Position numbers and translations under genes: made by a program. A model generated the notes under the pieces. The model made no database searches. It had not been told where the DNA came from and saw only the letters and a program-made list of their open reading frames with translations. Of a stretch of 24,034 bases of DNA, positions 71-24,034 are shown piece by piece; the stretch's first letter is position 1; the number at the start of each line of letters is the position of its first letter. Source of the DNA: a virus; the IMG/VR virus record IMGVR_UViG_3300046471_000233, positions 1 to 24,034 of that record. The stretch is one strand, 5' to 3'.

Positions 71-165
71 ATAGGTTCTCCGGCGATGGCGGTTCGGCCT
101 GGAGTTTTCGCAGCGGCCTGTTTCACACATATTTTAGTTTCAAGACCCGCCCCGAACCTGCCAGT
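71..165. other. Candidate cos (packaging) site
   Basis: This non-coding block is visibly richer in G+C than its flanks and lies directly upstream of the terminase genes, where lambda-type phages carry cos. It contains GGCGG (88-92) followed by GTTTTCGC (104-111). Lambda has GGCGG and GTTTTCGC at the same spacing across its nicking site. Imperfect dyads are present: CTCCGG (78-83) against CCTGGAG (98-104), and GGTTCGG (91-97) against CCGAACC (152-158). CGGCCTG occurs twice (95-101, 114-120). Seen: the composition, dyads and position. Inferred: the cos function and any cut position. The site could instead be a regulatory leader. Confidence 0.4.
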
Positions 166-212
166 ACTCCCCCTATGATCTCCAGCGGATAAATAATCCA
201 AAGGAGATACCA

Positions 213-767
213 ATGAAACTCACAATGAAAAAACTGGCTGAGCAGTACAGCTACGATGAATCAACAGTACGCCAAGTCTGGACACAGAAGGGGCTTGATA
301 TGTCATGGCCTGAAGAACAGATACGTGATTGGGTAAGAGACAACATAATTAAGCCCTTGAGAGAAACTGACCTTCGTGAACAGATGGATCGCCAGAAGTT
401 ACTGAAGCTAACAGCAGAGGCGGCAATGGCTGAACTGGAACTTGAGGAACAAATGGATCATATAGTGGGAATTGATTATCTACAGTCCAGCTTGTCCGAG
501 TACTTCACACAGATGAAGAACTATCTACGTTCCATGCCTAACAAACACTACCTTGAGCTTTTCGAATCTCAGGATGCTTTAGAACTAAAACAGAAACTAT
601 CAGGATTCATAGATGAAGCCTTGAATGAAATCGGTAATCAGGAATATGAATTACCGGAGGAACGACCACAGGAACTCACGGATGAGAACAAACCAACAGA
701 AACTACAGAGGATACTGAACAAAGCCAGGAAGACGATACTACCGCCGAAGAAACTACTACCGAGTGA
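213..767 (+). CDS. terS: Terminase small subunit (Nu1-like)
   Basis: 184 residues. The small terminase binds the cos/pac DNA and recruits the large subunit to start packaging. Residues 5-42 look like a winged or helix-turn-helix DNA-binding region of the Nu1 type, with a short loop and Trp residues, followed by a long charged helical segment (about 50-145) suited to oligomerisation. The last 40 residues are very acidic and rich in Thr and Glu. The start has a strong Shine-Dalgarno sequence (AAGGAGAT, 9 nt upstream region). It is the first gene after the candidate cos site and overlaps the large-subunit gene in another frame. The function rests mainly on position, size and the N-terminal DNA-binding pattern. 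Confidence 0.72.
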   Translation: MKLTMKKLAEQYSYDESTVRQVWTQKGLDMSWPEEQIRDWVRDNIIKPLRETDLREQMDRQKLLKLTAEAAMAELELEEQMDHIVGIDYLQSSLSEYFTQMKNYLRSMPNKHYLELFESQDALELKQKLSGFIDEALNEIGNQEYELPEERPQELTDENKPTETTEDTEQSQEDDTTAEETTTE

Positions 768-2574
768 TTGGGTAGAATCTAATATTACATTCCCAGATGG
801 CCCAATGTCAGGACAGAACGTTAAGTTATTTGAATTCCAGAAAGAACCTCTGAATGTAATCAGTAATCCAAAAATTCGAAAAGTAGTAATGCAATCAAGT
901 GCTCAATTATTGAAAACCACTGTAATGCTAAATGCTGCAATGTACTTTATGGCAACTGATAACAGTAATATGGCATTTGCTTCAAGTACTGGCAAAGAAG
1001 TTAAACTTATGAAGTCTGGTAAGTTTGATAATGTTGTAGCTAAGTCACCAGTACTTTCCAAGATAATAACAGACAAGAACAATAAGAACTTTGCGAACAA
1101 TGCCGATCAAACACAATGTGTTGATGGAAACTTTTTATATTGGTTGAACCTAAACGCAGCCAGTACTCTACGTGGTAAAACAATTAAAAGACTATTCCTT
1201 GATGAAGTAAGTAATGTCGATGTTGACGGTGATGAAGGTAATCCCCTAAGACTCGCCGAACAACGTGCTGCTACTTTCACAGATGGTCTTGTCATGGTGG
1301 CAAGTACTCCAAAGTTGAAGGATGACTTGATCTGTACTGAATATGAACTTTCAGATCAAAGACGGTACTTTATCAAATGCCCTCATTGCGAACATGAACA
1401 TACTCTTGAATGGGATAACGTTAAGTTCAGTTTTAAACAGGTCAATGGGGGTAAGAGGGCAATCCCTGATGAAGATACCGCAAGGCTTGAATGTCCAGAA
1501 TGCAAATCTGAGATCACAGAAGCCCAGAGAGTTAGGGCAGTAGCCGCAGGACATTGGATAGCTACTAATCCCGATGTAAAGGACGTTGCTGGATTTCAGA
1601 TCTCACGGTTATACAGTCCCATAACTACCATTAAGAAGTTGGTTCAGTCATTCGCAGTAGCAATGTACGAATTCAACCTGATGTCATTCATGAACAATGA
1701 GCTTGGTTTGCCTTGGAATGACGAGATGAACCAAGAACTTGATTCAGTACTACTCGAAAACCTGCGTGATTCAAGTTTTGATATCCGTAATATACCTGAT
1801 GATGTACTTGGAATTTGTATGGGAATTGACCAACAGTTAGACCGCTTGGAATGTACTACCATAGGATTTTCAGAATCACGTATATATGTCTTGGATCATC
1901 GTAGTTTCTTCAGTCCAGACTGTACTAAATTCGCAGCTAAGGCTTATACAGAACTTGAACAGTACTGCCATGGTGTATTCAAAACTAATGATGGAAGAAA
2001 ACTAAAAGTACTTGGTGCATGGATAGATTCCAGTAATGGGAATGCAACGGCAACGGTATATCGCTTCTGTGCTGGTAAGAAGTTATTCACACCAATAAAA
2101 GGATCTGCCAGTACTACCAGTGATTTGTTCAAGAAGTCCAGAACAGGTGGTCATGAACTTATGATGTTAAATGTTAACGTGGGCAAGTCAACAATACGAC
2201 GATTACTTAATGGTGCGGTCAGTGAAGATGCTGATGAATTACCACTACAGTTAAAGTTCTCCAGTACCTTACCAGATGATTATTTTGAAATGTTAACCTC
2301 TGAAGAACTAAAACGCAAAGGTGAAAATCTGTATTGGGTTCTTAAGAAAGGTATTAAGCGTAATGAATCATTGGACTGCCTTAACTACGCCTTGATATGT
2401 CAACAGGAAGTACTATCCAGACTTGGAAGTCAACCATTCGCCAAACTACGTAAGTACATGGCAAGTGTGAAATCAGATGATAAATACAACGAGGATATCC
2501 CAGTCAAACAACAGACCAAACAAGAGCAGCCTCGAAGAAGATTATCACAGGGACAATCTTGGTTTGGTAAATAA
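682..2574 (+). CDS. terL: Terminase large subunit, GpA family
   Basis: 630 residues. This is the ATP-driven packaging motor and cos-cutting nuclease (family PF05876). It opens with the family's PSDW element near 27-30. An ATPase P-loop equivalent is at 72-79 (SSAQLLKT) and a Walker B with catalytic acid is at 171-176 (LFLDEV, D174/E175). A zinc-binding pair, CPHC (233-236) and CPEC (271-274), is typical of GpA proteins. Nuclease-domain acids are visible at D383, D449 and a later LDC motif. The P-loop lacks the usual glycine. ATG 682 is chosen because AGGA lies 8 nt upstream; in-frame ATGs at 625 and 646 have poor or badly spaced sites. The chosen start still overlaps the small subunit by 86 bp. 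Confidence 0.93.
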   Translation: MRTNQQKLQRILNKARKTILPPKKLLPSDWVESNITFPDGPMSGQNVKLFEFQKEPLNVISNPKIRKVVMQSSAQLLKTTVMLNAAMYFMATDNSNMAFASSTGKEVKLMKSGKFDNVVAKSPVLSKIITDKNNKNFANNADQTQCVDGNFLYWLNLNAASTLRGKTIKRLFLDEVSNVDVDGDEGNPLRLAEQRAATFTDGLVMVASTPKLKDDLICTEYELSDQRRYFIKCPHCEHEHTLEWDNVKFSFKQVNGGKRAIPDEDTARLECPECKSEITEAQRVRAVAAGHWIATNPDVKDVAGFQISRLYSPITTIKKLVQSFAVAMYEFNLMSFMNNELGLPWNDEMNQELDSVLLENLRDSSFDIRNIPDDVLGICMGIDQQLDRLECTTIGFSESRIYVLDHRSFFSPDCTKFAAKAYTELEQYCHGVFKTNDGRKLKVLGAWIDSSNGNATATVYRFCAGKKLFTPIKGSASTTSDLFKKSRTGGHELMMLNVNVGKSTIRRLLNGAVSEDADELPLQLKFSSTLPDDYFEMLTSEELKRKGENLYWVLKKGIKRNESLDCLNYALICQQEVLSRLGSQPFAKLRKYMASVKSDDKYNEDIPVKQQTKQEQPRRRLSQGQSWFGK

Positions 2575-2582
2575 GGAATTAT

Positions 2583-3059: not shown

Positions 3060-6366
<3,307 letters not shown>

Positions 6367-6368
6367 TT

Positions 6369-6656: not shown

Positions 6657-7045
6657 ATATTATAACAATAAAAAATCATGTCAGTGACTCCCTTCTTTCG
6701 TTAGGTCTGACAGTACGCAAAGCAACCGAAATAAATCAAGATGCCGGAGATTACATTCTAATGATCTCCAACATGTTAGAACAATCAGAAAACATTCCAA
6801 TGGGAAGAAAGGCACAGACAGTACTTACTTGTGATATCTCATGTTCTTCAAAGGAAGAATCAACAGTACAGTCAGTAATGGCACAGGTATATGAACTGGT
6901 AACATCTCAGGATTTCCTTGTAAGTTTTAGTCCAAGTGTTCCAGTGAGTACCATAACAGTTATCAGTACTATCGATGATATAGATCCAACGTCTGGAATA
7001 AATACCTTGATGATAACACTTCAGTTTAATTATCTAACGAGGTAA
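6653..7045 (+). CDS. Putative tail terminator protein (gpU-like)
   Basis: 130 residues. It starts with a helix (KNHVSDSLLSLGL), then alternates strands and a helix (VQSVMAQVYELVTSQ) and ends with a strand rich in Leu, Met and Phe before a terminal Arg. This order is usual for tail terminators that cap the tube and dock on the head. Its position between a head-joining candidate and the tube genes fits. It is translationally coupled to the previous gene through ATGA, and its stop is 2 nt from the next start. Homology is inferred, not searched. Confidence 0.5.
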   Translation: MNIITIKNHVSDSLLSLGLTVRKATEINQDAGDYILMISNMLEQSENIPMGRKAQTVLTCDISCSSKEESTVQSVMAQVYELVTSQDFLVSFSPSVPVSTITVISTIDDIDPTSGINTLMITLQFNYLTR

Positions 7046-7047: not shown

Positions 7048-9927
7048 ATGAGTTCAATATTCCACGGTGGGAACACCTATATATTCTATAACACTGATGC
7101 TGGAAACAACATTCCTACAAGCATTGGATATAAAAACATTGACCAACTTGGAGCATTTCCCCAGGTTAAAATTAATTCAAGTACTACACAGTTCGAAACC
7201 TACAATGATGAATGGGTACAAGTACTATCAGGACAGATGAGTATTGATTCTGTCAGTATTGTAGTACATTACGTACCAGATAACTTGAGTCACAGATACC
7301 TTGATTCAATGTTCACAGACAGTACTAAATTCCAGATTAAAGTATCACTATATGAATCCCAGACTTCATTAGACCAGCACTATGTAATCTTAAGTGGTTA
7401 TGTATCTGCTTATCAGGATTCAGCCGATCAGAATGAAATCTTTGACCGTACTTACACATTCACGGCAGAAGATGTGATTGCCAGAGGTACGGCAGTAGAT
7501 CCGGCTCCCTTGAAACAGGGTGATTATGGTGTTGGTAGTAATGGTGAGGACATTCCTCAGTACGAATCCGATACCCCATCTGGTAATAGTTTTATCAAAG
7601 TACCGGCAATCCGGCAGGATAACCCATTGGGTGTAGATCTTGGTGGATTTGCATATGTTGATAATGGTGGTGATCAAGGTGCTCAGTTTGTAATTTCTGA
7701 GACAGGGCCAATCAATATCTATACTAAGAATACTGATAATCCATGGACACTACTACCAACAAAATCGCAAAATGATTTTTCATATGTACCAGTAACCAGA
7801 ACTATCAATAGTTATTCTCTTCATAATGATATTGTACTATCAAAATCTGATGTTGGACTTGGTAGTGTTCTGAACGTTCCGAGTTATTCAAAGACTGAAT
7901 CAGATAGTGTCTTTACTACTATGACAACTACTGTAAATGGACATCCGCTTTCAGCTAACGTTACTGTTACAAGTACTGATGTTGGACTTGGTAATGTACT
8001 GAACGTACCTTCATATAGTAAAAATGAAACTGATTCTTTAATCTCTAATGTGAACAGTTCTATTGCTACAGTCAGTAATAACAAAGTAGATAAAAAAACC
8101 ACCATAAATGGCCATGACCTATCTACTAATGTCGTACTAACAAGTACGGATACTGGTTCATTAGCTATTACTAATAACTTAAGTGATGTAGCTAATGTAA
8201 CAACCGCACGTACTAACCTTTTAGCGGCAAAGTCTGGCATCAACTCTGATATTACAAACATTACAACATTATCGGGTTCCTTAAGGCTTGGTGCCGATGC
8301 TCAGAACGATTATGACGCTGTTACCTTAAAACAACTTTTGGCAAATTCTGGCGGCAGTTCTGGCCCAAGTATGACGGGAGTAATGAATAATTATCTGGGG
8401 GCTGTGAGCTGGTTTAACGGTTCTCGTGCAAAGTTACCAGCAGGGCACTTAGCAGGAGATGGACAGCTACTAAGCCGTGCTACCTATCCAGAGATTTGGA
8501 ACGCTATCAGTACGGGGATGTTAATCAGTACTGACGATACCGCATGGCAATCTACGCCCACAGTTCGCGGTATGTACTCAACAGGTGATGGAAGCACAAC
8601 ATTCCGTATGCCTGATCTCAATGGTGTTTGGGTACATCCTACTAACACAAACTTTAATTCCGTGCCTGGTTTGTTCTTACGTGGTGATGGTGGTACAGAA
8701 GGACGTACAGTGGGATATGTTCGCTTAGGTTCAGTCCCTAATCTTACAGGTTCATTCCAGGCGGCATTCAATGGGGCTACTGTTGGTATCATTAACAACC
8801 AAACAGGGGTGTTTACTAACTTAGGTGCTTCTTCTATTGGTACTCCAAATGCACCAGCTACCGCATCAACCGCACGGGACATACGAGTTAACTTTGATGC
8901 TTCATTAATCAGTAATGTTTATGGTGCTGATGGTACTACTGAAGTACGTCCCAACTCTGTAAAAGGTATTTGGGTTATCCGTGTAAACGGAATGTTCTCA
9001 GCCAGTTCTACGAACTTCAACGTAATCACAGCCGACACAGCTTTACCCGCAGCGGGTACGGTAGTCTACGGTGGTGATCTTAGATCTGTTTATCAAGTTG
9101 CTGGAAGTGATTATGTAGTAGCCCGTCTAAGAGCTACCAGTACTATCGGTACATCCAGAGGTGCTGTAATCAGTCTACAAGATTCAAGTACTGGTAGTGT
9201 TGTTAACACTAACTGGGCATTGCCTGCTACTGGTGGAACCTTAGCCTTAAGTACGGATACACGTTTCAGTACGATTGATGGTAAAACGGGTGGTACTATT
9301 TCAAGCTCTATATCAGTCAATGGTGTAGTGAATGTTTCATCAAATCTAAACGTTGGTACAAACAGTGCTACAAGTTCCCAGGTGATGGCGGCAAGTACTA
9401 ATACTTCAGAATTAAACAGGGCAGGTGGGTTATTCAACTCAATTATCTACACAGGTACTTCTAACCGAGCACAAGCAAACTTTTATATGGCTACGTCTGG
9501 TTCAGTACGTGTCGCTAAGATTGATGTTTACGCTGATGGTAGTGGTGGTAAATCATTTCAATTCTATCAAGATTCAGGAAATGGAACATGTTCAGGAACA
9601 TGGAATGGCGGCTCTGATGAACGTCATAAATCTAATGTTGTATTAGTACCCAATGCCCTTGAAGCTGTACTTTCTTGGCGTGGTTGTACCTATGATAAGA
9701 AAGATGGACTTTCAGAAGTTGGTTTAATTGCTCAGGATGTTGAAAAAGATTGCCCAATAGCAGTTACAACAAACGGCGATCGTGTTTTTGAAGATGGTAC
9801 AGTAGTTACAGACTTTAAGTACTTGAATACTTCAGGAGCAGCGGCCGCTTATCATACTGAAGCTATCAAAGAACTATACGCAATCATTCAAGATCTTCAA
9901 TCTCAAATAAATGAATTGAATAAATAA
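7048..9927 (+). CDS. Tail-tube domain fused to tail fibre with collar and S74 chaperone
   Basis: 959 residues. Residues about 1-155 are homologous to the tube protein encoded just downstream (9975-10430): both have an SI.V.Y.PD. segment, a Q/K-rich strand, a YVI/YVV.(S/N)G(Y/F)(V/I)SA segment and a DRTYTF/TREFTF strand. Residues about 250-385 hold three fibre repeats of the form T-(I/V)-N-x-x-x-L-x-x-(N/D)-(I/V)-x-(L/V). Residues about 450-650 are a phage tail collar domain (FRMPDLNGVW, FLRGDG, RPNSVKGIWVIRVNG). Residues 856-959 are an S74 intramolecular chaperone with SDERHK; S856 and K861 have the spacing of the known Ser-Lys self-cleavage dyad. The probable role is host binding by fibres carried on a tube-like ring. 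The fusion of a tube domain with a whole fibre is unusual. Confidence 0.85.
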   Translation: MSSIFHGGNTYIFYNTDAGNNIPTSIGYKNIDQLGAFPQVKINSSTTQFETYNDEWVQVLSGQMSIDSVSIVVHYVPDNLSHRYLDSMFTDSTKFQIKVSLYESQTSLDQHYVILSGYVSAYQDSADQNEIFDRTYTFTAEDVIARGTAVDPAPLKQGDYGVGSNGEDIPQYESDTPSGNSFIKVPAIRQDNPLGVDLGGFAYVDNGGDQGAQFVISETGPINIYTKNTDNPWTLLPTKSQNDFSYVPVTRTINSYSLHNDIVLSKSDVGLGSVLNVPSYSKTESDSVFTTMTTTVNGHPLSANVTVTSTDVGLGNVLNVPSYSKNETDSLISNVNSSIATVSNNKVDKKTTINGHDLSTNVVLTSTDTGSLAITNNLSDVANVTTARTNLLAAKSGINSDITNITTLSGSLRLGADAQNDYDAVTLKQLLANSGGSSGPSMTGVMNNYLGAVSWFNGSRAKLPAGHLAGDGQLLSRATYPEIWNAISTGMLISTDDTAWQSTPTVRGMYSTGDGSTTFRMPDLNGVWVHPTNTNFNSVPGLFLRGDGGTEGRTVGYVRLGSVPNLTGSFQAAFNGATVGIINNQTGVFTNLGASSIGTPNAPATASTARDIRVNFDASLISNVYGADGTTEVRPNSVKGIWVIRVNGMFSASSTNFNVITADTALPAAGTVVYGGDLRSVYQVAGSDYVVARLRATSTIGTSRGAVISLQDSSTGSVVNTNWALPATGGTLALSTDTRFSTIDGKTGGTISSSISVNGVVNVSSNLNVGTNSATSSQVMAASTNTSELNRAGGLFNSIIYTGTSNRAQANFYMATSGSVRVAKIDVYADGSGGKSFQFYQDSGNGTCSGTWNGGSDERHKSNVVLVPNALEAVLSWRGCTYDKKDGLSEVGLIAQDVEKDCPIAVTTNGDRVFEDGTVVTDFKYLNTSGAAAAYHTEAIKELYAIIQDLQSQINELNK

Positions 9928-9974: not shown

Positions 9975-10430
9975 ATGGCAATGGACATTTTTTCAGGTGC
10001 TAATCTAACCGTAGAAATCGGCACCGCTGGTACTACTGAATCAACTACTTTTACTGAAGTACCAGAGATCGCAACTTTCGCAACTTCTGGCGGTACAAGT
10101 ACAGTAATCGATGTTGTTACTTTCAACTCAATTTATAATCGTAAACTATTGGGTACTAAGTCTGTCCCGGACATAAGCATTAACGTGAACTATTTACCGG
10201 ACGATGCTGTACATGCTCAGATGGTTACGGCAAGTGAAAATCAAACCCGTATTCAGTTAAAGCTCAGCTACTATCAGGACGCCACTAAATCAAAAGGATT
10301 CTATGTCGTTTACAATGGTTTCATCTCCGCTGATAACTTGGCCGGTGATAAAGATGCTGTAGTTACTCGTGAATTTACATTTGCCGTTGATGGTGGATCA
10401 GTAAGTACTGGTTTGATTGGGGCTGAATAA
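9975..10430 (+). CDS. Major tail tube protein
   Basis: 151 residues. It forms the stacked rings of the non-contractile tail tube. The sequence has the layout of gpV-like N-terminal domains: an early strand after MDIFSGANLTVEI, a DISINVNYLPDDA segment near 75, a Q-rich strand near 95, a FYVVYNGFISA strand-turn near 115 and a final REFTFAVDGG strand. There is no C-terminal Ig domain. It follows the homologous tube-fibre fusion by 47 nt. AGGA lies 7 nt before ATG 9975; ATG 9981 is also possible. The stop overlaps the next start as TAATG. The next genes are chaperone and tape measure, the standard order. Confidence 0.82.
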   Translation: MAMDIFSGANLTVEIGTAGTTESTTFTEVPEIATFATSGGTSTVIDVVTFNSIYNRKLLGTKSVPDISINVNYLPDDAVHAQMVTASENQTRIQLKLSYYQDATKSKGFYVVYNGFISADNLAGDKDAVVTREFTFAVDGGSVSTGLIGAE

Positions 10431-10729: not shown

Positions 10730-11130
10730 AAAATAATCCCCGTTTGCGTTTTACCTTAAAGATGCTCCACAAGCGGGGATTATCGCCATCTGAACTTGAA
10801 GAATTAGATCCTGAACTATTTGAGTACTTAATGATATTTGACTCTGTGATTGAACCTAATGGTGCAAAGTTTGAACAAATAAAGTACGCAAATCTTTGTC
10901 ATTTAATCTTGATGAGTTCAGGTAATCTAACTGAACAAGGTATGAAGAAGGCGAAAGTACTTGATTGGGATATGTTCGGATTGTTAAGTAACTTGACTAC
11001 AAGGGAACTTGCAGAGGAACAAGAAAAGGATAAATGCAATCAGGAACAAGCAACATTTTCGGCCATGGCTGATCTAATAAAGTCAGAGGCATTAGCCAAG
11101 AACAAAGGGAAAGGTGATGGCAAAAAATAA
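10430..11130 (+). CDS. Tail assembly chaperone, long form by -1 frameshift (gpGT-like)
   Basis: Slippage by one base at 10720-10726 joins the 99-residue short form to the -1 frame. That frame is open from there to a stop at 11130 and adds IKNNPR plus 128 residues, giving about 233 residues in all. The downstream frame has no credible start of its own: its first candidate is TTG 10744 with no ribosome-binding site. The extension is helical and charged (SPSELEELDPELFEYL near its start, a Lys-rich end), like the T part of lambda gpGT, which binds the tape measure. The direction of the shift agrees with lambda. This is a join of 10430-10726 and 10726-11130. Confidence 0.85.
10720..10783 (+). promoter_or_regulatory. 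-1 programmed frameshift site with stimulatory stem
   Basis: The heptamer A AAA AAA occupies 10720-10726 in the correct phase for tandem slippage. After a 6-nt spacer, ATAATCCCCGTTTG (10733-10746) pairs with CAAGCGGGGATTAT (10770-10783): 14 bp with one G-T wobble around a 23-nt loop. The zero-frame stop TAA follows the heptamer directly. Heptamer, spacer and stem match the standard layout of bacterial -1 frameshift signals. Confidence 0.85.
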
Positions 11131-13314: not shown

Positions 13315-13335
13315 GCCCTCTCATGAGGGCTTTTT
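13315..13335 (+). terminator. Rho-independent terminator after the tape measure gene
   Basis: GCCCTC (13315-13320) and GAGGGC (13325-13330) form a 6-bp stem with a TCAT loop, followed by TTTTT. It begins 5 nt after the tape-measure stop. It lies across the stop codon of the reversed gene, but only the rightward reading is followed by a T run. It may end tube and tape-measure transcription or be read through late in infection. Confidence 0.8.
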
Positions 13336-14130
13336 ATTTTTAATGTATCGATAATAAAAATCAATAGCATTTAGTCGATAAAGAGCAGCCCTAAATAAAA
13401 GAAGGGATACTATGATGGTGGCGAAAGAAATATAAAGTAAAACTCTTTGCCCTTTTATGATTTGTGTGATTGCTTCACTTTCTTTTTTAACTAAAAAACC
13501 ATCACATATTGCATTGACAGAATTAGTTTCAAGGTTTGTAAGTCTTGCATAGTTCCCCCTGTTAAAATCAGGTCGCATACAATCTTCTTTAGAAATTATG
13601 TAATCTGACGAAAGGGTTTTAGCTCTATGCAAATTTATTGAAATCCAAGGATCGTTATCATTTATTTTTACAATGGCTTGGGTTGAAGTTCCCCAAATCC
13701 CTAAAATCAATGATGACAAAAATAACGCCATTGCAATTACACACAAGACGAAAGTCATGAATCCATTTGGTCTGGTTAGTTTTAAATCGGATATTCTAAA
13801 CCATGACTTAACATTCGAGATTCTTCTGATATCATAGTTGTTATCAGCTATCCATTTTGTGAAATTTACAATTTCTTTGGTATTAATGGCATTTACATTA
13901 TATATAGAGTTAAACTTATCTATATCATGCCTTTCCTTATTGAATTTACTGATCTGTTTGTTGTTGTATTCTTTTTGTCCTATAAATAAAGACCAGACTT
14001 TATCCAAGATGGTATATATGGAGCCGGATTTATAGTAGAAATAAGTCCATACGGCAACAATAGCAAGTAGAATATATATTGATTTGAAATATTCTTCAAA
14101 CTTACCTAGAAATTGAAATATATTATCCAT
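13321..14130 (-). CDS. Three-pass membrane protein, probable prophage cargo gene
   Basis: 269 residues, and the only convincing gene on the minus strand. Hydrophobic segments are at about 17-33, 123-147 and 229-249. Residues 34-122 are a charged, probably cytoplasmic domain. The loop at 148-228 has two cysteines (C184, C209) that could form a disulfide if outside the membrane. From memory the N-terminal half resembles prophage membrane proteins grouped as DUF6216; this is unverified. The gene is visibly A/T-richer than its neighbours, contains no GTAC (about 8-9 expected from the window average), and interrupts the tail operon between a terminator and the distal-tail gene. Such genes often alter the lysogen, for example by excluding other phages, but no function is shown. 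There is no clear ribosome-binding site. Confidence 0.75.
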   Translation of the reverse strand: MDNIFQFLGKFEEYFKSIYILLAIVAVWTYFYYKSGSIYTILDKVWSLFIGQKEYNNKQISKFNKERHDIDKFNSIYNVNAINTKEIVNFTKWIADNNYDIRRISNVKSWFRISDLKLTRPNGFMTFVLCVIAMALFLSSLILGIWGTSTQAIVKINDNDPWISINLHRAKTLSSDYIISKEDCMRPDFNRGNYARLTNLETNSVNAICDGFLVKKESEAITQIIKGQRVLLYISFATIIVSLLLFRAALYRLNAIDFYYRYIKNKKPS

Positions 14131-15770: not shown

Positions 15771-18700
15771 ATGGGATCATCAGGTAATGGAATACTTGGA
15801 GCCATTGTAACAGCAGTCGCAGTATTCGCAGCAGCTTATACAGGTGGTGCATCATTAGCAGCCTCAGCAGCATGGGGAGCAGCAGCCGGGGCAGCCAGTT
15901 TTGTTGCAACAAGTATGTTAAGTCAAATAGGGGTTACACCTTACAGTGACGCAGCGACAAGCCTTAGTCGAAGTACTGCACCAACTTCAGGGATGCCAAT
16001 TCTCTATGGTGGTGATAAACCGAATTTGAATCAAGGTTGCTATATAAAAACTGGTTCAATAGTAAATTGGTTCAACGTACAGAATTCTGATTCTCAGTAC
16101 TTGTTCACATCTCATGCAATTGCAATGGGTGAGATTCAGAATGTTATTGCACAGATTTATATCGATGATGAACCAGTACTGGCAAATCCAATCACCACAG
16201 AAGGTGTAGTTACTCCAGATAAGATACTTGCGAAGTATCAGAAGTACCTACAACTTGAGGTGTACTTTGGAAAATCAAACTATACGCAACCAAAAGTACT
16301 GGCTGGTCAGTATGCTGGAAATCAATGGAACAACAAGACTTTTCACGGTAATGGTGTAGTACAGATTTATACTGTTATCAAAAAGACGCAATCAAGCCTT
16401 GAAGATTCATTACTTGTTAATGATAACTACGTACTAACAGTAGAAGCCAAGGGGCGTTTGATTACCGATTTAGTAGACCTTCAGGTACGTCCGGCAAGTA
16501 ATGCACCAAGTCAGATATATGACTATATGACAAATACTGATTTTGGTATGGGATTAGATCCCAATGTCATTAATCTTGCAAGTTTCCGAACAGCAGCACA
16601 GTACTGTGAAGCATATGAGTACTACAGTAATGGTGCTATCGATTACTCTGCATCGTACAAATCAAACATTGAACAGATGCTTCAGACGTTCGGTGGGATC
16701 ATGTTCATTCACTCTGGACAGTTATACTTAACCGTCGATGTTCAAAGTACTTCAGTTATGTCATTTGATGAATCTAACATCTTTGGTGATTTCAAACTTA
16801 CCACTTCGGGTATGACTGATTACTTCAATACTATCGACGCAACATGGAAGAACGTTTCAAACAGCTATTCAGACGATGTTGTACGTATCCCAAGTGATAT
16901 CTCAAGTTCAGATGTTATCAAGTCTGATGGACAGATCATTACGGTAACTCGTGACTACACATGGGCATATGACAAAGACCAGGTAGCGGCATTGGTAAAC
17001 ATCGATTTGCTAAAGGGCAAGTACAGTCAAAGTACTATTCAATTCTCCAGCGATTCAGCATGGGATTTGAAAGTATGGGACGTTATCACTGTTAGCTTCT
17101 CGGAGAACGGTATTCAGAACAAACTGTACCGAGTACTCAGTAAAGACATTGCCACGGCACAAGACAGTATCGGCATGATCAACATCATGGCGGTTGAATA
17201 CCACGCAGGGATTTATCAGGGCATTGACGTACCAATCTGGTCTGAAGATGGTGATATCTCAAGTGTGGCAGTAGTACAGCCACCAAGTGGCCTACAGGTC
17301 ATTAAGAAGGGCGGTACAGTCAGTAACGGTCAGGTAGTACTGATGCAATGGCTTGCAAGCCCAGATGCCTATCTGCGGGGTTACTATGTCTACTACCGCA
17401 AAACAGGTGTAGCAGCATGGACATATGGCGGTTCAGTTAACCAGTACAACCTAAGTTACGAGCTATACAGTCTTGACCCTAACGAGAAGTATGATTTTGC
17501 AGTAGCGGCATTCAATAACCTTGGATTCGTCTCAGTGAAGGTTAGTCTTGATGGCGTACAGCCTGACTTTGAATTTAGTTTGCCAGCAGTAACTAACCTT
17601 CATCTTGTGAACGCAGACGTATCTGTCAGTGAAACTAACTCAGGTGATTTCGTACTGGCATGGGATTCGCAGAAGTCCCTTCAGGTCAACGGTAAGCCAT
17701 TCACAGACTACTTCACACGGTATGAGGTGATTGTATATTCCACTTCTGGAAACAAGGTTAAATCGTACTACACGCAGGATGACACCTTTACCTATACCTT
17801 CCAGATGAACAAGGCTGATAACATTGGTCGTACTGTCAAACTTGGAGTGGTGGCATGGGGGGCAACCTCTGGCACATACAGTCCAGAAGTACAGATAACT
17901 GTTAAGAATCCACAGGCACCTTTACTACAAGGTCTTGAGGCACGTTCTGCAATTGGTCAGATTGTATTCATATGGTCTGATGAAAATCGCCCGGTGGATT
18001 ACGCTGGTATCTTGTTCCAGATTTCAAGTTCTGAGAATTTCAGTACTGGAGTGCAGAGTTTCACTACTGACAAGTACTATACAGAATGGATTACTGTACC
18101 AGATGGTCAGTACTACATCAGGGCGGGGCAGTACGATGTATTTGGCCTTGATGGTATTCAGTACACACAGATGCTTCCATTCTTACAACAGACAGACATA
18201 CCATTTAGTCAGTTAAATAATGATGTGGTTGATGGAATCATAGGTAGTTCTGAATTCAATGAAGTAGTAACCCAGATAATTCACGATGAATCAGGAACCT
18301 CATATTACCTGAGCGTAAATGACAATGGATATGTTGCAGGTATTGGTATCAAAGTAAATGGTGTAGAACAAACCAGTGTAATGACTGTCATAGCAGATCG
18401 ATTTAGTATCATAAGCTCTGGTACAGCAAGTGACAGTACTAAAATCTATCCATTTATTGTTCAGAATGGTAAAACTTGGATCAACTCAGCAATCATACAA
18501 GATGCAAGTATTGGTACAGCTCAGATAGCAAACGCTGCTATTAACAATGCTAAGATTGCCGATGCCAGTATAAACGCGGCTAAGATTCAAGATGGTCAGA
18601 TTACCAATGCCAAGATAGGCAATACCATTCAATCAAATAACTACGTGGCTAACAGTACGGGATGGTTACTTGATAAAGGGGGTAACTTCTATATCAATGG

Positions 18701-18791
18701 TTCTGGTAATGGTCGAATGATAATTAATAACACACAAGTACTCGTATATGACGGTAACAACGTCTTACGGGTAAGAATGGGACTATGGTAA
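15771..18791 (+). CDS. Tail tip / host-specificity protein (gpJ-like)
   Basis: 1006 residues. It forms the tail tip and central fibre. Residues about 7-50 are Ala/Gly-rich and hydrophobic, as in many gpJ-like proteins. Residues 60-500 form the hub-like core, with TSGMPILYGG near 72 and repeated strand segments. From about 503 there are fibronectin type III-like units (PPSGLQVI near 503; a YYVYYRKTG strand; a second from about 604 and a third from about 705). The C-terminal end has the repeated INNAKI-ADASINAAKI-type segments followed by GWLLDKGGNFYING and VYDGNNVLRVRMGLW, common in lambda J relatives and probably receptor-proximal. The stop overlaps the next gene as TAATG. Confidence 0.88.
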   Translation: MGSSGNGILGAIVTAVAVFAAAYTGGASLAASAAWGAAAGAASFVATSMLSQIGVTPYSDAATSLSRSTAPTSGMPILYGGDKPNLNQGCYIKTGSIVNWFNVQNSDSQYLFTSHAIAMGEIQNVIAQIYIDDEPVLANPITTEGVVTPDKILAKYQKYLQLEVYFGKSNYTQPKVLAGQYAGNQWNNKTFHGNGVVQIYTVIKKTQSSLEDSLLVNDNYVLTVEAKGRLITDLVDLQVRPASNAPSQIYDYMTNTDFGMGLDPNVINLASFRTAAQYCEAYEYYSNGAIDYSASYKSNIEQMLQTFGGIMFIHSGQLYLTVDVQSTSVMSFDESNIFGDFKLTTSGMTDYFNTIDATWKNVSNSYSDDVVRIPSDISSSDVIKSDGQIITVTRDYTWAYDKDQVAALVNIDLLKGKYSQSTIQFSSDSAWDLKVWDVITVSFSENGIQNKLYRVLSKDIATAQDSIGMINIMAVEYHAGIYQGIDVPIWSEDGDISSVAVVQPPSGLQVIKKGGTVSNGQVVLMQWLASPDAYLRGYYVYYRKTGVAAWTYGGSVNQYNLSYELYSLDPNEKYDFAVAAFNNLGFVSVKVSLDGVQPDFEFSLPAVTNLHLVNADVSVSETNSGDFVLAWDSQKSLQVNGKPFTDYFTRYEVIVYSTSGNKVKSYYTQDDTFTYTFQMNKADNIGRTVKLGVVAWGATSGTYSPEVQITVKNPQAPLLQGLEARSAIGQIVFIWSDENRPVDYAGILFQISSSENFSTGVQSFTTDKYYTEWITVPDGQYYIRAGQYDVFGLDGIQYTQMLPFLQQTDIPFSQLNNDVVDGIIGSSEFNEVVTQIIHDESGTSYYLSVNDNGYVAGIGIKVNGVEQTSVMTVIADRFSIISSGTASDSTKIYPFIVQNGKTWINSAIIQDASIGTAQIANAAINNAKIADASINAAKIQDGQITNAKIGNTIQSNNYVANSTGWLLDKGGNFYINGSGNGRMIINNTQVLVYDGNNVLRVRMGLW

Positions 18792-19093: not shown

Positions 19094-19740
19094 GTGGATT
19101 TGAAGCATATAACGCATCAGGATATAAGACGATAGATTCTGACTACAGGGCAACAGTCATATCAACAGCACGGGGGATGCCCGGCTTAACAGACATGGGG
19201 AACCAGACAAACATTAATAGTCCTTTCGGAAATGGTGTTACTCTTGGGTTTCTTCCATATAACTACTTGTCGGGTATGACAGGGGCGTTATGGTTCAGGC
19301 TTAATGCTGGTAATTATTGCTGGCCTGGTCCGGGTTTATACGAAGCAGGATCTGGTACTTTCATGAATTCCAGTACTGCCAATGGTATCAGTTCTGGTTA
19401 TCTTGATGTCTATAACGCATCAGGCGGTTTAGTATGGTCAGCAGCAAGTGCGGGCACAATGCCAAGGATTATTGACTTTATAACTATCCCTAATGGATAT
19501 GACTTAAGCAACAATACATTAACTATGAACTTAAGTTATAACCCTTGGATTTGTATCAGTCAGGCTCCGGGTAACTACAGCCCAGATCCAGAAGGTGGTC
19601 TTGGTTATTCTGGATTCCAGTTCAAATGGACAGGTTCTCAGTTACAGACACGGTGGGTTAGTGCTAAACAAAGAACATACCCACAAGTATTCTCTGGCAT
19701 TACATACAAGATAGCTTTGGCTCAGTTCACTGGATACTAA
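19090..19740 (+). CDS. Tail-tip associated protein with the same N-terminal module
   Basis: 216 residues. It begins MSGFEAYNASGYKTIDSDY, resembling the start of the preceding protein and the last segment of the gpJ-like protein (hydrophobic, aromatic, Asp/Asn-x-x-Gly, then a polar stretch). A second copy of YNASGG appears near 112-117. The remainder is rich in Gly, Asn, Ser and aromatic residues, typical of virion surface proteins. ATG 19090 overlaps the previous stop (ATGA), so it is preferred over the upstream in-frame start at 18994, which lies inside the preceding gene. The role is unknown; tip decoration is likely. Confidence 0.55.
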   Translation: MSGFEAYNASGYKTIDSDYRATVISTARGMPGLTDMGNQTNINSPFGNGVTLGFLPYNYLSGMTGALWFRLNAGNYCWPGPGLYEAGSGTFMNSSTANGISSGYLDVYNASGGLVWSAASAGTMPRIIDFITIPNGYDLSNNTLTMNLSYNPWICISQAPGNYSPDPEGGLGYSGFQFKWTGSQLQTRWVSAKQRTYPQVFSGITYKIALAQFTGY

Positions 19741-19744
19741 ATAC
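19737..19744 (+). promoter_or_regulatory. CTAAATAC motif, copy 1 (possible promoter element)
   Basis: CTAAATAC spans the stop codon of the preceding gene and lies 33 nt before the next ATG. Copies also occur before 20099 and 23324 at almost the same distance. It resembles a -10 element; no -35 is obvious. Confidence 0.25.
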
Positions 19745-20024: not shown

Positions 20025-20026
20025 TT

Positions 20027-20054
20027 AAGACGGGATAACTCCCCGTCTTTTTTT
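20027..20054 (+). terminator. Rho-independent terminator before the lysozyme gene
   Basis: AAGACGGG (20027-20034) pairs perfectly with CCCGTCTT (20042-20049) around a 7-nt loop, and seven T residues run from 20048 to 20054. It follows the stop of the coiled-coil gene by 2 nt and separates tail genes from the lysozyme block. Confidence 0.88.
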
Positions 20055-20061
20055 ATATCTG

Positions 20062-20070
20062 CTAAATACC
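20062..20070 (+). promoter_or_regulatory. CTAAATACC motif, copy 2 (possible promoter element)
   Basis: This motif lies between a strong terminator and the lysozyme gene, 37 nt before the ATG, the same distance as copy 3 before the methyltransferase gene. After a terminator, a promoter is expected here. There is no clear -35 partner. Confidence 0.3.
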
Positions 20071-20098
20071 ATAAGACACAACCAGACAAGGAATAGTC

Positions 20099-20551
20099 AT
20101 GGACATTAAACAAACTCTAAAAACCTATGAAGGTACTCAACAGTATCAGGCAAAGCTTGGATACTTCAAAAACTCAAAGTTCTGGACATACAAGGACTCA
20201 TTAGGATATCCGACAATCGGCTATGGTCATTTAGTACTGAAGTCTGAAGATTTCAAAGACGGACTAACTGAACAGCAAGCTGATGAACTACTTTCGAGGG
20301 ATATCTTGATTGCTAAGTCTGAAGTACTGAAGCTTAAGTTGAATCTTCCGGCTGAATCTAACTGGAACGACTTCATTGTACTGATGGTATTCCAGCTTGG
20401 ATTGACCAAGACACTTGGTTTTAAGAAGTTTTTAGCAGCACTAAAGGAAGGAAACTATGCAACGGCAATCATAGAAGTACGTGACAGTCAGTGGTACAGG
20501 CAAACCCCAAATCGCGTTGACCAGATGATCCATGATGTACTGAAGGGTTAA
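20099..20551 (+). CDS. Endolysin, T4-type lysozyme (GH24)
   Basis: 150 residues. It cuts peptidoglycan between N-acetylmuramic acid and N-acetylglucosamine at the end of infection. The catalytic triad of T4 lysozyme (Glu, Asp, Thr) is visible as E11, D33 and T39, within YEG, WTYKDSLGYPT and IGYGH. About 13 extra residues lie between E11 and D33 compared with T4 lysozyme. There is no signal peptide or signal-anchor helix, so release depends on a holin; a candidate lies about 1.3 kb downstream at 21895. AAGGA lies 6 nt before the start. The final helix has the RVDQMI segment typical of the family's end. Confidence 0.92.
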   Translation: MDIKQTLKTYEGTQQYQAKLGYFKNSKFWTYKDSLGYPTIGYGHLVLKSEDFKDGLTEQQADELLSRDILIAKSEVLKLKLNLPAESNWNDFIVLMVFQLGLTKTLGFKKFLAALKEGNYATAIIEVRDSQWYRQTPNRVDQMIHDVLKG

Positions 20552-20553
20552 TT

Positions 20554-20982
20554 ATGAACGCATGGACGATGTTTTACCCAATGGATTGGGAACTTGATGA
20601 AGTAACGAATTATTCCGCTTTCATTTATCTGATACAGTTTCCAGATACTAATGAATATTATTTTGGAATCAAACAAGTTTACAAGAAAATCAAGAATGCC
20701 TCAGAAATTAAAAGTACTTCACAGGAATCTAATTGGGAAGGTTACACCTCAAGTTCGAAGTACGTAAAAGCCATGATAGCCGATGGTATGCCTTATAAGA
20801 AACAAATCCTTTGGTGCTATAAGAGCCTACAGGAAGCAGCACTTGCCGAAACAGCCTTGATTAGTATCTTTGGTTCAGATCACCTGAACATTAACAAGGC
20901 AGTAATGGTTAAGACCAGACTCAAGAAGGACTCAGGGGAACAGTTTAAAATCATTCAAAGGATAGTAGGGGATTTAATATGA
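20554..20982 (+). CDS. GIY-YIG-like protein, possibly a nuclease
   Basis: 142 residues. It shows a GIY-YIG layout: FIYLIQFPD (about 23-31), then YYFGIK 4 residues later, an SSSKYVKAMIADG helix in the middle, a KQILWCYKS strand-helix, and AETALI, where the conserved Glu of this fold is expected. The usual catalytic Arg after the YIG strand is not apparent; Lys residues occupy that area. It could be a free-standing homing-type nuclease, a degenerate one, or a packaging-associated nuclease. It sits between lysozyme and a neck/tail gene. The stop overlaps the next start as ATGA. The fold call is by motif reading only. Confidence 0.5.
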   Translation: MNAWTMFYPMDWELDEVTNYSAFIYLIQFPDTNEYYFGIKQVYKKIKNASEIKSTSQESNWEGYTSSSKYVKAMIADGMPYKKQILWCYKSLQEAALAETALISIFGSDHLNINKAVMVKTRLKKDSGEQFKIIQRIVGDLI

Positions 20983-21566
20983 TTACAGGGGGATTTCAAT
21001 CCGGCAGTACTCCACAAGATGCTGTCCGGTGGATTAACAAAAAAGAAACAGAGGTTATCGTAAACGTTCAGTCTGAGATAACCAAACGAGTACGGGCGTT
21101 GACATACCAACTTCAGGATAAATTAAATAAGGATATAGCAGGCGGCCCGGTGGCATTTACCAAGCGGGCATTATTCTTCAACTTCATCCAGAACGGCGAT
21201 ACCCGTACTAACCAGATTTTAGTACGAGGTGATCAGGCGGCATACCTTAGAAGTACTATCACAGCCAGTCAGGATCTCTTTGATAAGTTCATACCTACGA
21301 GCAACGCAAAGCTAAGCCAACAGGGGAACATCTCTGGACTAAAGGCAGGCATGGACAAGAAGTACAAGGTGATTCAGGTCAAAGGCAAGAAGCTACTGGT
21401 AGACACTACTAAAAAGAAAAAGAACCGTGATAAACGTATTGTCGCAGTTAAAGAAAAGAAACGCCGCAAGATGATATTTGATTTCTTCAAGGAAGCAGAA
21501 GCAGGGGCGAAACTAATCCTCTCTGATGTTAACGGTACTTATACATTTACAAAAAGGATTTTATGA
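20979..21566 (+). CDS. Putative minor tail / neck protein (gpZ-like)
   Basis: 195 residues. The first helix (TPQDAVRWINKKETEVIVNVQSE, split in family members) is followed by a second helix with RVRALTYQLQDKL. Then come GGPVAFTKRALFF, a strand ILVRGDQAAYLRSTI, and a Lys/Arg-rich segment (about 130-165) before a final helix-strand. The order, helix then P-x-x-(Y/F)-T-(K/R)-x-(A/S)-(L/F) then a strand with AYL, is that of minor tail proteins that join tail and head in other phages. Here the gene is among lysis genes rather than beside the tail terminator. It is coupled to its neighbours by ATGA overlaps on both sides. Confidence 0.5.
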   Translation: MITGGFQSGSTPQDAVRWINKKETEVIVNVQSEITKRVRALTYQLQDKLNKDIAGGPVAFTKRALFFNFIQNGDTRTNQILVRGDQAAYLRSTITASQDLFDKFIPTSNAKLSQQGNISGLKAGMDKKYKVIQVKGKKLLVDTTKKKKNRDKRIVAVKEKKRRKMIFDFFKEAEAGAKLILSDVNGTYTFTKRIL

Positions 21567-21892: not shown

Positions 21893-21894
21893 TT

Positions 21895-22194
21895 ATGTTT
21901 TCAATAACAACGATCATTGATTTGATCAAGACTGGTTTTGGTTTCTTCCAGAAAAAGGAACAGAGTAAGGATCAACTGAACGCCCAGAACAGTCATGAAC
22001 AGAATGAAATCACCCTTGAGGAAACTCGTAAAGGCTTCACATGGCGGCAGGGACTTGGATGGGTGCTGACGTTCCTTGTCCTATGGAACTTCGTAGTGAT
22101 ACCAGTACTGGCCTTGTTCGGTGTAGTACTTCCCACAATACCACTTGATGAAGTGTGGAAAGTACTTATAATCTTGAATGGTGGAGTGTCATAG
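21895..22194 (+). CDS. Putative holin (3TM-phage-holin-like)
   Basis: 99 residues. Holins form inner-membrane holes that release the endolysin. The N-terminal helix (3-19) is followed by a polar charged stretch. Then a WRQGLGW element leads into a long hydrophobic segment (about 52-78), a PTIPLDEVW turn and a last hydrophobic segment ending in NGG. This pattern, with Trp-containing helix starts and a terminal Gly-Gly, resembles GTA_holin_3TM members. ATG 21895 is chosen because AGGAGAGG lies just upstream; the in-frame ATG at 21844 lies inside the preceding gene. The lysozyme lies about 1.3 kb upstream. Confidence 0.65.
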   Translation: MFSITTIIDLIKTGFGFFQKKEQSKDQLNAQNSHEQNEITLEETRKGFTWRQGLGWVLTFLVLWNFVVIPVLALFGVVLPTIPLDEVWKVLIILNGGVS

Positions 22195-22213
22195 ATTTTT
22201 ACTTGAGGTTTTC

Positions 22214-23263
22214 ATGAATATTTCTCCTGATTGGATTAACGAACATCTTCCTAAATTCGAATTGCTTGGTAAGCATGTTGCCTTCATTATTGAGAATTTG
22301 TTTCAATCAAATGGTATTGAGTATCTCTCAGTAAATTATCGAACAAAAAGTAAATTAAGTATACAAGAGAAAATAACAAGGAAAAACTATTCATCACCTT
22401 TGATTCAAATGACGGATATATCAGGTGTAAGAGTTATTTTGTTTTTCGAAAGTGATATAGATAAAGCTTGTGATATTATTAAGTCAATCTTTAATGTTGA
22501 TGTCGAGAATAGTACTAATAATTCAGAAAGACTCTCAATTGATAAAATAGGTTATCGTTCTGTTCATTACGTTTGTGATATTGGTAATAATAGGAAGGAA
22601 CTTGCTGAGTATTCTTATATTTCAGGTTTGAAGTGCGAGATACAAATTCGAACCATGCTCCAACATGCATGGGCAGAATTGACCCATGACCGCAATTATA
22701 AATTCGAAGGTCATCTTCCGCTGGAAATTAAACGTAAAATAAATCTATATTCAGGTATGTTGGAGTTAGTAGATAATGGATTTGCTGAAATAATTTCTGA
22801 GATTGATAGTTATCAAGAGATTCTAAGGAAACAACCTGTTGATACTTTTTTGGAACAACCAGTAAGTTCAGTATCATTAAAGGAATTTTTTGATAAGGTG
22901 TGTATCGAATATGACATACCTGCTGTACAGCTTCATAGGCTAAAAAAATCAAGTATGTCTGAGTTGTTGGATGAAATTGACTTTATGGGCATAAAAACCC
23001 TGAAAGAACTTAAAGAGTTAATTCCAGATAGTTATGCGGAAATATTAAAAGAATTTAATCAACGTGCTACAATTTATGGATTTATCAGGGATCTGTTGTT
23101 AATAATGGATTATGATAAGCTAAGGGCCAAGCCTGGTTTAAACTGGTGTGTGCTTCAACTTGATGAAGATGGTGAGCATGATTTAGGTTTAGATTATTAT
23201 TCAAAATTAATCAGCCCAGCAGATGCTCATAAAATCTACAAATTATTTAATGAGTTTCAGTAA
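22214..23263 (+). CDS. RelA/SpoT-domain nucleotide synthetase (toxSAS or defence candidate)
   Basis: 349 residues. The N-terminal half is a RelA/SpoT synthetase domain (PF04607), which transfers pyrophosphate from ATP to a nucleotide or tRNA. Visible family motifs are YRTKSKLS (42-49), TDISGVRVI with catalytic-type D68, GYRSVHYV (113-120), EIQIRT with E142, and LQHAWAE (149-155) followed by HD. There is no hydrolase domain. Residues about 195-349 are a helical region I do not recognise. Small phage-borne synthetases include toxins and fused toxin-antitoxin defence proteins (CapRel), so a defence role is plausible but unproven. It contains only two GTAC (about 11 expected), is A/T-richer, and ends at a hairpin: signs of recent gain. 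GAGG precedes ATG 22214; the in-frame ATG at 22178 is inside the holin gene. Confidence 0.85.
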   Translation: MNISPDWINEHLPKFELLGKHVAFIIENLFQSNGIEYLSVNYRTKSKLSIQEKITRKNYSSPLIQMTDISGVRVILFFESDIDKACDIIKSIFNVDVENSTNNSERLSIDKIGYRSVHYVCDIGNNRKELAEYSYISGLKCEIQIRTMLQHAWAELTHDRNYKFEGHLPLEIKRKINLYSGMLELVDNGFAEIISEIDSYQEILRKQPVDTFLEQPVSSVSLKEFFDKVCIEYDIPAVQLHRLKKSSMSELLDEIDFMGIKTLKELKELIPDSYAEILKEFNQRATIYGFIRDLLLIMDYDKLRAKPGLNWCVLQLDEDGEHDLGLDYYSKLISPADAHKIYKLFNEFQ

Positions 23264-23286
23264 AAAATATCCAAATCTTTAATTAA

Positions 23287-23295
23287 CTAAATACC
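23287..23295 (+). promoter_or_regulatory. CTAAATACC motif, copy 3 (possible promoter element)
   Basis: Identical to copy 2 and also 37 nt before the next chosen ATG. It overlaps the left arm of the hairpin at 23290-23319, so it could be part of the terminator sequence rather than a promoter. Confidence 0.25.
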
Positions 23296-23323
23296 TGCAT
23301 ATTAACTTATGCGGGTATTATTT
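23290..23323 (+). terminator. Terminator hairpin after the RelA/SpoT gene
   Basis: AATACCTGCATA (23290-23301) pairs with TATGCGGGTATT (23308-23319) over 12 bp with one G-T wobble and a 6-nt loop. Only a short T-rich stretch (ATTT) follows, so termination may be moderate. It could also act as a two-way terminator. It separates the RelA/SpoT gene from the methyltransferase gene. Confidence 0.6.
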
Positions 23324-24034
23324 ATGGCACGACTCAGTAAACAACAAGCAAAATTACATCAACAAGTTTTAGACCTTGTTCACTCAGATACAGTACTAAC
23401 ATTCGAACAGAAAGAATTCATCTTAGGTAACTATCAGGGCGATGGTATAGGCAGTACAGGAGCATTCTTCACGCCTGAAGGTCTTGCATGGGATTTTAGT
23501 ATTGATTCTGCCAGTACAGGACGTTGCCTTGAACTATGTGCGGGGATAGGGCGGTTGTCATTCTCTCAGTACATCCGACACAGGCCGGAACACATCACCT
23601 GTGTTGAGTTGAATCCAGAGTACTGCCAGATAGGGCAAAGGATACTTCCAGAGGCAGAGTGGATCTGTATGGATGCTCTCCAGTACGTCTCAGAAGAACG
23701 ATTTGATGTTGTCTATGGCAATCCACCTTTCGGTAAGATTAAGACCTCAGAAGCACTTACAGGCTCGTATAGAGGCTCTGAATTTGAATACAAGGTGATA
23801 CAGCATGGCAGTACTTTGGCAGACTACGGAATCTGGATCGTTCCCCAAGGATCAGCCGGATTTGTCTACTCAGGTGTTCGCTGTTATGAACGTCGAGAAT
23901 CTGCTAAGTACGCCAAGTTCACCAACGAGACAGGGTATGTGTTAGAGGCAGGATGTGGGATTGATACGTCTATCTACAGGGATCAGTGGCATGGAACGAA
24001 CGTACTGTGTGAGGTGGTTACGGTTGAGTACTGA
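23324..24034 (+). CDS. SAM-dependent DNA methyltransferase, N6-adenine type
   Basis: 236 residues. Class I methyltransferase features are in order: AFFTP (47-51), motif I LELCAGIGRLS (69-79) for SAM, an acidic end of the next strand (VELNPEY, E95), MDAL with D117, and the catalytic motif NPPFG (133-137) typical of N6-adenine or N4-cytosine DNA methylation. The order I then IV and the small size without an evident separate target-recognition domain suggest an orphan enzyme rather than half of a restriction pair; no nuclease gene is adjacent. ATG 23324 is preferred because the in-frame ATG 23309 lies within the terminator hairpin; the ribosome-binding site (GGGT) is weak. Unlike the preceding gene it is rich in GTAC. 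The target is not predictable from sequence alone. Confidence 0.85.
   Translation: MARLSKQQAKLHQQVLDLVHSDTVLTFEQKEFILGNYQGDGIGSTGAFFTPEGLAWDFSIDSASTGRCLELCAGIGRLSFSQYIRHRPEHITCVELNPEYCQIGQRILPEAEWICMDALQYVSEERFDVVYGNPPFGKIKTSEALTGSYRGSEFEYKVIQHGSTLADYGIWIVPQGSAGFVYSGVRCYERRESAKYAKFTNETGYVLEAGCGIDTSIYRDQWHGTNVLCEVVTVEY

Follow-up and report, generated by a model that had tools for sequence, protein, structure and literature searches.

Evenly dispersed AGTACT and missing GCGC in a family of Enterobacterales prophages that may rely on jumbo phage infection

Late genes and short words in the window

We analyzed IMG/VR virus record IMGVR_UViG_3300046471_000233, a complete record of 24,034 bp (referred to here as the window, i.e., the whole stretch of DNA studied), which covers the late gene region of a tailed phage whose terminase is of the gpA type and in which the palindrome AGTACT is strongly overrepresented. 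On its plus strand, it encodes the terminase small subunit (213 to 767; PHROG phrog_57, E 7e-11), the terminase large subunit of the gpA family that defines the clade (625 to 2574; Pfam GpA_ATPase and GpA_nuclease), a portal protein recognized by synteny and by an ortholog annotated as portal in E. coli prophages (3060 to 4529), and a prohead protease fused to the major capsid protein (4477 to 6366; Pfam Peptidase_S78 and Phage_capsid). Further downstream lie a tape-measure-like protein (11114 to 13309), which has no Pfam match and was assigned from its position, length, and ortholog series, and a tail-tip protein (15771 to 18791), which aligns with an ortholog annotated as such. The full list of sites places 85 AGTACT and 251 GTAC between 163 and 24032, with one AGTACT per ∼284 bp (starts include 163, 499, 985, 1050, 1162, 1303, 1746, 1961, 2007, 2110, and 2409 at the left end and 23392, 23619, 23810, and 24027 at the right).

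Base composition predicts 7.8 AGTACT and 85 GTAC sites for the window; AGTACA occurs 30 times and TGTACT 24 times. A preliminary description made from the sequence alone had put the AGTACT and GTAC counts at about 85 and about 250, close to the exact values. To separate codon usage from word usage, we permuted synonymous codons within each gene in 500 runs, keeping both the protein and its codon usage. The coding sequences contain 84 AGTACT against 21.8 ± 4.0 in this shuffle, with a maximum of 33 among the 500 runs, and 250 GTAC against 142.7. This shows that codon usage yields about one-quarter of the AGTACT sites and more than half of the GTAC sites, while the remainder arises at the level of the word. 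Codon usage and dipeptide preference are thereby ruled out as the cause of the AGTACT excess, as the preliminary description had argued from inspection; the dipeptides themselves are skewed as well (QY 1.6 and ST 1.31, versus 0.4 and 0.77 in the sister clade introduced below). The palindromic, DNA-level cause proposed there also held, given that AGTACT occupies all three reading frames (37, 31, and 16 sites) and that CAGTAC (3.7-fold over shuffle) and GTACTG (3.5-fold) are enriched alike, the equal enrichment of both half-word orientations indicating a signal that resides in duplex DNA. AGTACT is the top-ranked palindromic hexamer in the window and in every relative tabulated.

The recognized word is short. 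In a logistic fit of synonymous choices, the effects fell chiefly inside AGTACT and were weak in the flanks, which disfavors a long recognition motif. The best consensus, CAGTACTG, occurs 178 times in 33 pooled clade sequences against 4.65 expected (38-fold), while GAGTACTC occurs only 7 times (1.5-fold).

Selection at the DNA level, and not mutation, drives the density of AGTACT. In a substitution test covering 392 independent ortholog gene pairs (107,629 aligned codons), TAC inside AG_T was retained in 88% of cases versus 61% in other contexts, and TAT inside AG_T in 59% versus 82%, with the same bias for AGT preceding ACT, for GTA in A_CT, and for AAG or GAG preceding TAC. Lower loss together with higher gain of AGTACT points to weak selection or biased fixation, and the TAC:TAT odds of 355:54 versus 1972:4515 give a rough pairwise estimate of S of ∼2.7 per full site. 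AGTACT also ranked first among 576 words for evenness of spacing in the clade (combined z of −4.6, versus an all-word mean of +0.35), and hence it combines overrepresentation with more-than-random evenness in the manner of uptake-like and Chi-like dispersed words. The mutational bias listed as an option in the preliminary description is contradicted by the reduced loss and raised gain of the word and by the even spacing of its sites. Palindromes are usually avoided in phage genomes; here, weak selection for a dispersed one could be quantified.

GCGC is absent from the entire window (positions 1 to 24034; 0 sites versus ∼19 expected from codon usage) and from the native genes of 40 nonredundant clade members (0 versus 484 expected). 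All GCGC sites in the clade fall in genes with more than 48% GC, which were transposase-like insertions in the four loci inspected. GC-rich transposase-like genes interrupt the late genes of prophages L104, L137, L151, and L097, which are probably defective. As for other palindromes, CTAG occurs once in the window against 85 expected and is missing from many relatives, though not all, and both the window clade and the sister clade avoid CTGCAG, CAGCTG, and GGTACC.

Distribution of the word signature among prophages, hosts, and jumbo phages

Relatives of the window were located via the terminase and then assembled region by region; a scan with the portal protein found none. They form a family of ∼35-kb Enterobacterales prophages, most of which carry a serine recombinase-like protein at one end and have sharp junctions with the host, and the window is a fragment without the recombinase end. 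GTAC and AGTACT are high over the entire relative prophages and fall at the host junction, and AGTACT lies below its reversed control word in 13 of the 13 host genomes counted. The low host values and the end of the enrichment at the prophage ends mark AGTACT as a phage trait, and a host trait is ruled out by the scarcity of AGTACT in host chromosomes. The preliminary description had named two outcomes that would refute it, a codon-preserving shuffle matching the AGTACT count and an equal excess across host chromosomes, and neither was found; its assignment of the enrichment to the late region stands for that region but not as a restriction, since the relatives are enriched over the whole element. 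That description did not notice that GCGC is missing, that a sister clade is free of the enrichment, or that unrelated jumbo phages display it.

The sister clade has the same gene order and a terminase that is 40% identical, but its AGTACT and GTAC counts are 0.23 and 0.70 of the shuffle expectation; more distant relatives show no AGTACT enrichment either. Sister elements (L171 to L178, G337, and G392) have normal GCGC, carry endonuclease VII in place of a GIY-YIG nuclease, and resemble RB49 most closely in word profile among the phages tested; they may depend on another T4-like phage. Within the window clade, some members (for example, L112, L097, L118, L194, L195, and G251) have purged AGTACT and are still enriched in GGTACT, AGTACC, and AGTACA, for which a ScaI-like restriction system is a plausible cause.

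When IMG/VR was scanned with two patterns for clusters of AGTACT, the long, strongly enriched, and GCGC-free contigs were essentially the window clade and jumbo phages of 345 to 371 kb, one of these contigs being Klebsiella phage RaK2 (100% match). RaK2, Escherichia phage 121Q, Cronobacter phage GAP32, and Munch are T4-like jumbo phages of Enterobacteriaceae that are unrelated to the window clade. Across the whole genome of 121Q, AGTACT occurs 903 times versus 119 expected, CAGTACTG 194 times versus 3.5, and GCGC not once versus 295 expected by composition. Relative to the shuffle, AGTACT reaches 3.69 in the window clade, 3.60 in 121Q, 3.51 in RaK2, 3.55 in GAP32, and 3.99 in Munch, compared with 0.95 in T4, 0.00 in RB49, and 0.28 in E. 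coli; a mixed host sample gave 2.17 and may include prophage DNA. For GCGC, observed and shuffle-expected counts are 1 and 253 in the window clade and 0 against 140, 24, 36, and 25 in the four jumbo phages, versus ratios of 1.37 in the sister clade, 1.17 in T4, and 1.09 in RB49. Four-mer profiles follow the same split, with correlations to the window clade of 0.94 for 121Q, 0.94 for GAP32, 0.90 for Munch, and 0.89 for RaK2, but −0.04 for the sister clade, −0.07 for T4, 0.03 for RB49, and 0.01 and 0.13 for hosts. AGTACT spacing in 121Q gave z values below 1, mostly negative, in 15 of 17 intervals of 20 kb, and the other two intervals, which bear repeats, were strongly clumped. These clumps (z of 12 and 17; ∼140 to 180 kb of KM507819, L381 and L382) apparently lie in repeated intergenic sequence. 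The word signature goes unmentioned in the description of the CBB and GAP32 jumbo phages (PMC5259590), and we found nothing direct in the literature on AGTACT in prophages or on the idea of jumbo phage satellites.

Promoters, shared genes, and nucleases

T4/jumbo-type late promoter-like ATAAATA words stand on the plus strand upstream of the terminase small subunit gene (189 to 195) and of the tail gene at 9975 (9920 to 9926), and a single site (6998 to 7004) is a putative promoter of the gene at 7048. The variant CTAAATA(C) occurs where the lysis block starts (19737 to 19743), upstream of the endolysin gene (20062 to 20068), and upstream of a methyltransferase-like gene (23287 to 23293), likewise on the plus strand. 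In the clade, intergenic ATAAATA reaches 85 sites versus 14 expected, and 121 of its 215 occurrences are intergenic, where intergenic DNA makes up ∼5% of the sequence. CBB and GAP32, both of which have a gene for a gp55-like sigma factor, are predicted to use ATAAATA as their late promoter (PMC5259590). The late sigma families phrog_234 and phrog_12791, which were detected in 121Q, GAP32, and T4, were found in none of 25 window-clade records and none of 5 sister records. The early region is headed by a TGAAACG-N-GGTATAAT promoter in 5 of 11 clade prophages and by a variant of it in 2 others, but in neither of two sister prophages; TGAAACG is the −35 box described for CBB and GAP32. Profile searches of the early genes, which covered part of the prophages and were not exhaustive, returned HNH nucleases and unknown families, with no sigma factor or polymerase.

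When clade proteins were compared with those of 121Q, the endolysin matched in nearly all members and tail fiber proteins in part of them, together with a small number of minor genes; no protein other than the endolysin linked 121Q to nearly every one of the 16 clade members compared (E < 0.01). In the window, this protein (20099 to 20551, plus strand; Pfam Phage_lysozyme) finds its best phage-database matches in jumbo phages of the RaK2/121Q/CBB/Munch type (48 to 53% identity, E to 2e-38), and the tail fiber of some clade members is 50% identical to that of 121Q over 950 amino acids. RaK2/121Q-type jumbo phages show no homology to the window terminase, portal, or capsid. Among six phages compared, the PF05869 adenine methyltransferase (Dam family) is present in 121Q, GAP32, RaK2, and Munch and absent from T4 and RB49, and neither PF05869 nor PF00145 occurs in the 18 clade records searched. 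The jumbo phage PF05869 enzyme is the leading candidate reader of AGTACT, and a methylation mark laid down by it is possible, if rather doubtful.

Next to the endolysin lies a GIY-YIG nuclease of the SegE family (20554 to 20982, plus strand; Pfam SegE_GIY-YIG, E 5e-16; model pLDDT of 92), followed on the same strand by a late protein (20979 to 21566), which is conserved in its alignment and is probably a tail completion protein. Every clade member with a contig that spans this part has the nuclease, including members in which its gene has been relocated; the sister clade is without it and encodes endonuclease VII. A fold search with the nuclease model gave weak matches only (9u75 and I-TevI), none with E below 0.2.

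Three further genes of the window have a more restricted occurrence or an unusual position. A RelA/SpoT-domain protein (22178 to 23263; Pfam E 1e-19; PHROG phrog_9640) is missing from the 16 related elements compared, a DUF6216 gene on the minus strand (13321 to 14130) contains no AGTACT and is probably recent cargo among the late genes, and the DNA methyltransferase-like gene at the right end (23309 to 24034; phrog_3820, E 1e-105) occurs in only a few of the related elements and is frameshifted in G048.

A possible jumbo phage helper, its alternatives, and known systems

The distribution of the two words, the late promoters together with no late sigma factor in the 25 clade records searched, the early promoter, and the related endolysin lead us to favor, at slightly better than even chances, a family of prophages that relies on infection by RaK2/121Q/GAP32-type jumbo phages. 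Head, tail, packaging, and lysis functions come from the prophages themselves, and the jumbo phage would supply at least late transcription. Their DNA would have to function and survive in jumbo-infected cells and would thus be selected for the rules of the jumbo genome, namely, to contain no GCGC and to carry AGTACT (at best CAGTACTG) densely and evenly spread. GCGC could be the target of a jumbo phage nuclease that destroys host DNA, and AGTACT could be a self mark, probably the methylation site of the Dam-family enzyme, with both genomes modified. These two steps, the GCGC nuclease and the AGTACT mark, are much less certain than the helper itself. More broadly, and only tentatively, the words may be a code that a larger phage imposes on all DNA multiplying in its cell, with GCGC lethal and evenly spaced AGTACT read as self; the prophage family would have evolved the whole code of its helper, and the sister clade and the module of phage DCP80 described below would carry the codes of other T4-like helpers.

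Several points weigh against such a helper. The dependence is deduced from sequence, and, in contrast to known satellites, the elements possess genes for a full particle (terminase, portal, protease-capsid, tail, tail tip, and endolysin); they do integrate into the chromosome and carry an integrase, but with full particle genes they are not classed among the known satellites (PICI, PLE, and P4-like). Intergenic ATAAATA is also in excess in the sister clade (42 versus 11 expected), although that clade lacks the signature, and therefore the promoter type alone cannot name the helper; avoidance of TAAATA is seen in a small E. coli sample as well. The TGAAACG promoter is hardly found in 121Q itself, which ties it to the CBB/GAP32 branch. 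With AGTA, GTAC, and GCGC words removed, the four-mer correlations with the jumbo phages drop to 0.54 to 0.64 and no longer set these phages apart from hosts, some of which reach 0.57. Finally, the searches may have overlooked a sigma factor that has diverged, many records being incomplete, and the same may be true of replication genes, since early genes were scanned in part of the prophages.

The alternatives differ in who is thought to read AGTACT. The elements could be self-sufficient phages that, like the jumbo phages, encode an unrecognized pair of factors, for example, a nuclease for GCGC and a protein that reads AGTACT, each on its own or shared by transfer. This is less probable. In its favor, structural, packaging, and lysis genes are all complete in the clade, a serine integrase is present, most of the early genes match no known family and could hide a shared gene, and endolysin and tail fiber genes have moved between the clade and the jumbo phages. 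It is at odds with the endolysin being the only protein that 121Q shares with nearly all of the members compared, with early genes that are not conserved in the clade while the signature is, and with the lack of late sigma factors in the records searched. A clade-encoded factor is in general unlikely, since the clade and the jumbo phages have no conserved clade-specific DNA-acting gene in common. The GIY-YIG nuclease is one such proposal: AGTACT would be its preferred cutting or resolution site, with the enzyme replacing endonuclease VII in debranching during packaging. Its universal presence in covered clade members, the endonuclease VII of the sister clade, and the even spacing of the sites fit this, and resolvases such as RuvC can show sequence preference (PMC3834835). 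However, 121Q bears an equal AGTACT enrichment with an annotated endonuclease VII and no detectable GIY-YIG homolog, and within the prophages nuclease and signature are confounded by one clade split; this proposal is improbable, and the AGTACT excess is probably not the work of the nuclease, although its strict association with the clade and the endonuclease VII of the sister clade are still of interest.

A host DNA-binding or defense factor that rewards AGTACT has a lower probability still. The nucleoid occlusion protein SlmA is the obvious example, since AGTACT is the center of its consensus site GTGAGTACTCAC (PMC3116907), but the flanking bases rule it out: full GTGAGTACTCAC sites number 0 in the clade, where CAGTACTG and not GAGTACTC is enriched, and 121Q repeats the pattern with 194 CAGTACTG, 3 GAGTACTC, and 0 full SlmA sites. 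Moreover, the sister clade, T4, and RB49 also infect enteric bacteria and lack the signature, which excludes any host factor with an effect on every phage. It is very improbable in turn that the window clade brings its own methyltransferase or restriction system with AGTACT as the site. The methyltransferase-like gene in which the window terminates would suggest it, yet only some members carry that gene, one of them (G251) shows no AGTACT enrichment, and the AGTACT-enriched G001, G276, G271, G079, and G175 do not have it; its patchy distribution rules it out as the cause, and the absence of PF05869 and PF00145 from the clade records argues in the same direction. Least probable of all is a mutational bias of phage replication or repair, which would agree with the enrichment of AGTACT in every frame and every core gene but not with the context-dependent retention of TAC and TAT, with the lack of depletion in one-mismatch neighbor words, or with spacing more even than random. 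Deamination of GCGC to GTAC was rejected as well, because the GTAC excess is far above the missing GCGC, one-mismatch words show no depletion, and losses are reduced.

If the prophages do depend on jumbo phages, a widespread, uncharacterized family found in E. coli, Pantoea, and other Enterobacterales would be hitchhikers of virulent jumbo phages with particles of their own. Word statistics would then offer a sequence-only route for pairing such elements with their helpers and show who parasitizes whom, and the RaK2/121Q-type phages (GCGC-free over 348 kb, with AGTACT favored) would hold an unexplained self/nonself DNA code pointing to a nuclease and a mark.

Among known systems, the T4-like jumbo phages RaK2, 121Q, GAP32, and CBB share the AGTACT, CAGTAC, and GCGC values of the window family, its ATAAATA late promoters, and a related endolysin, but they are virulent, measure ∼350 kb, and have a T4-type terminase and capsid. 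Satellites of virulent phages, i.e., PLE with ICP1, PICMI, and I55 (PMC7567579, PMC10803314, and PMC12595487), are likewise chromosomal, carry an integrase, and appear tied to the expression program of a virulent helper, I55 being an island carried and transferred by a Pseudomonas jumbo phage (PMC12595487). Unlike them, the window family has capsid, terminase, tail, and lysis genes of its own and matches its presumed helper in short words, and the dependence demonstrated for these satellites is here deduced. Escherichia phage DCP80 (PQ671644, filed under Gaprivervirus) has a left 25 kb that is a distant relative of the window head module (TerL 37% identical) with TATAAATA promoters; this module is joined to T4-like genes, AGTACT is not enriched, and GATC rather than GCGC is missing. 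Endonuclease VII and T4-type genes follow the left 25 kb (L407 and L408), GATC counts are 0 of 78 and 0 of 59 expected in the two parts, and the record is either a true hybrid or a co-assembled hitchhiker. The closest parallel for the word itself is the GATC/GGATCC excess of subcluster B3 mycobacteriophages, which its authors left unexplained (PMC4841201): there, too, a palindrome is in roughly fourfold excess genome-wide in one clade and not in its relatives, but the word and the host are different, and no codon control, spacing test, banned word, or second unrelated lineage was reported.

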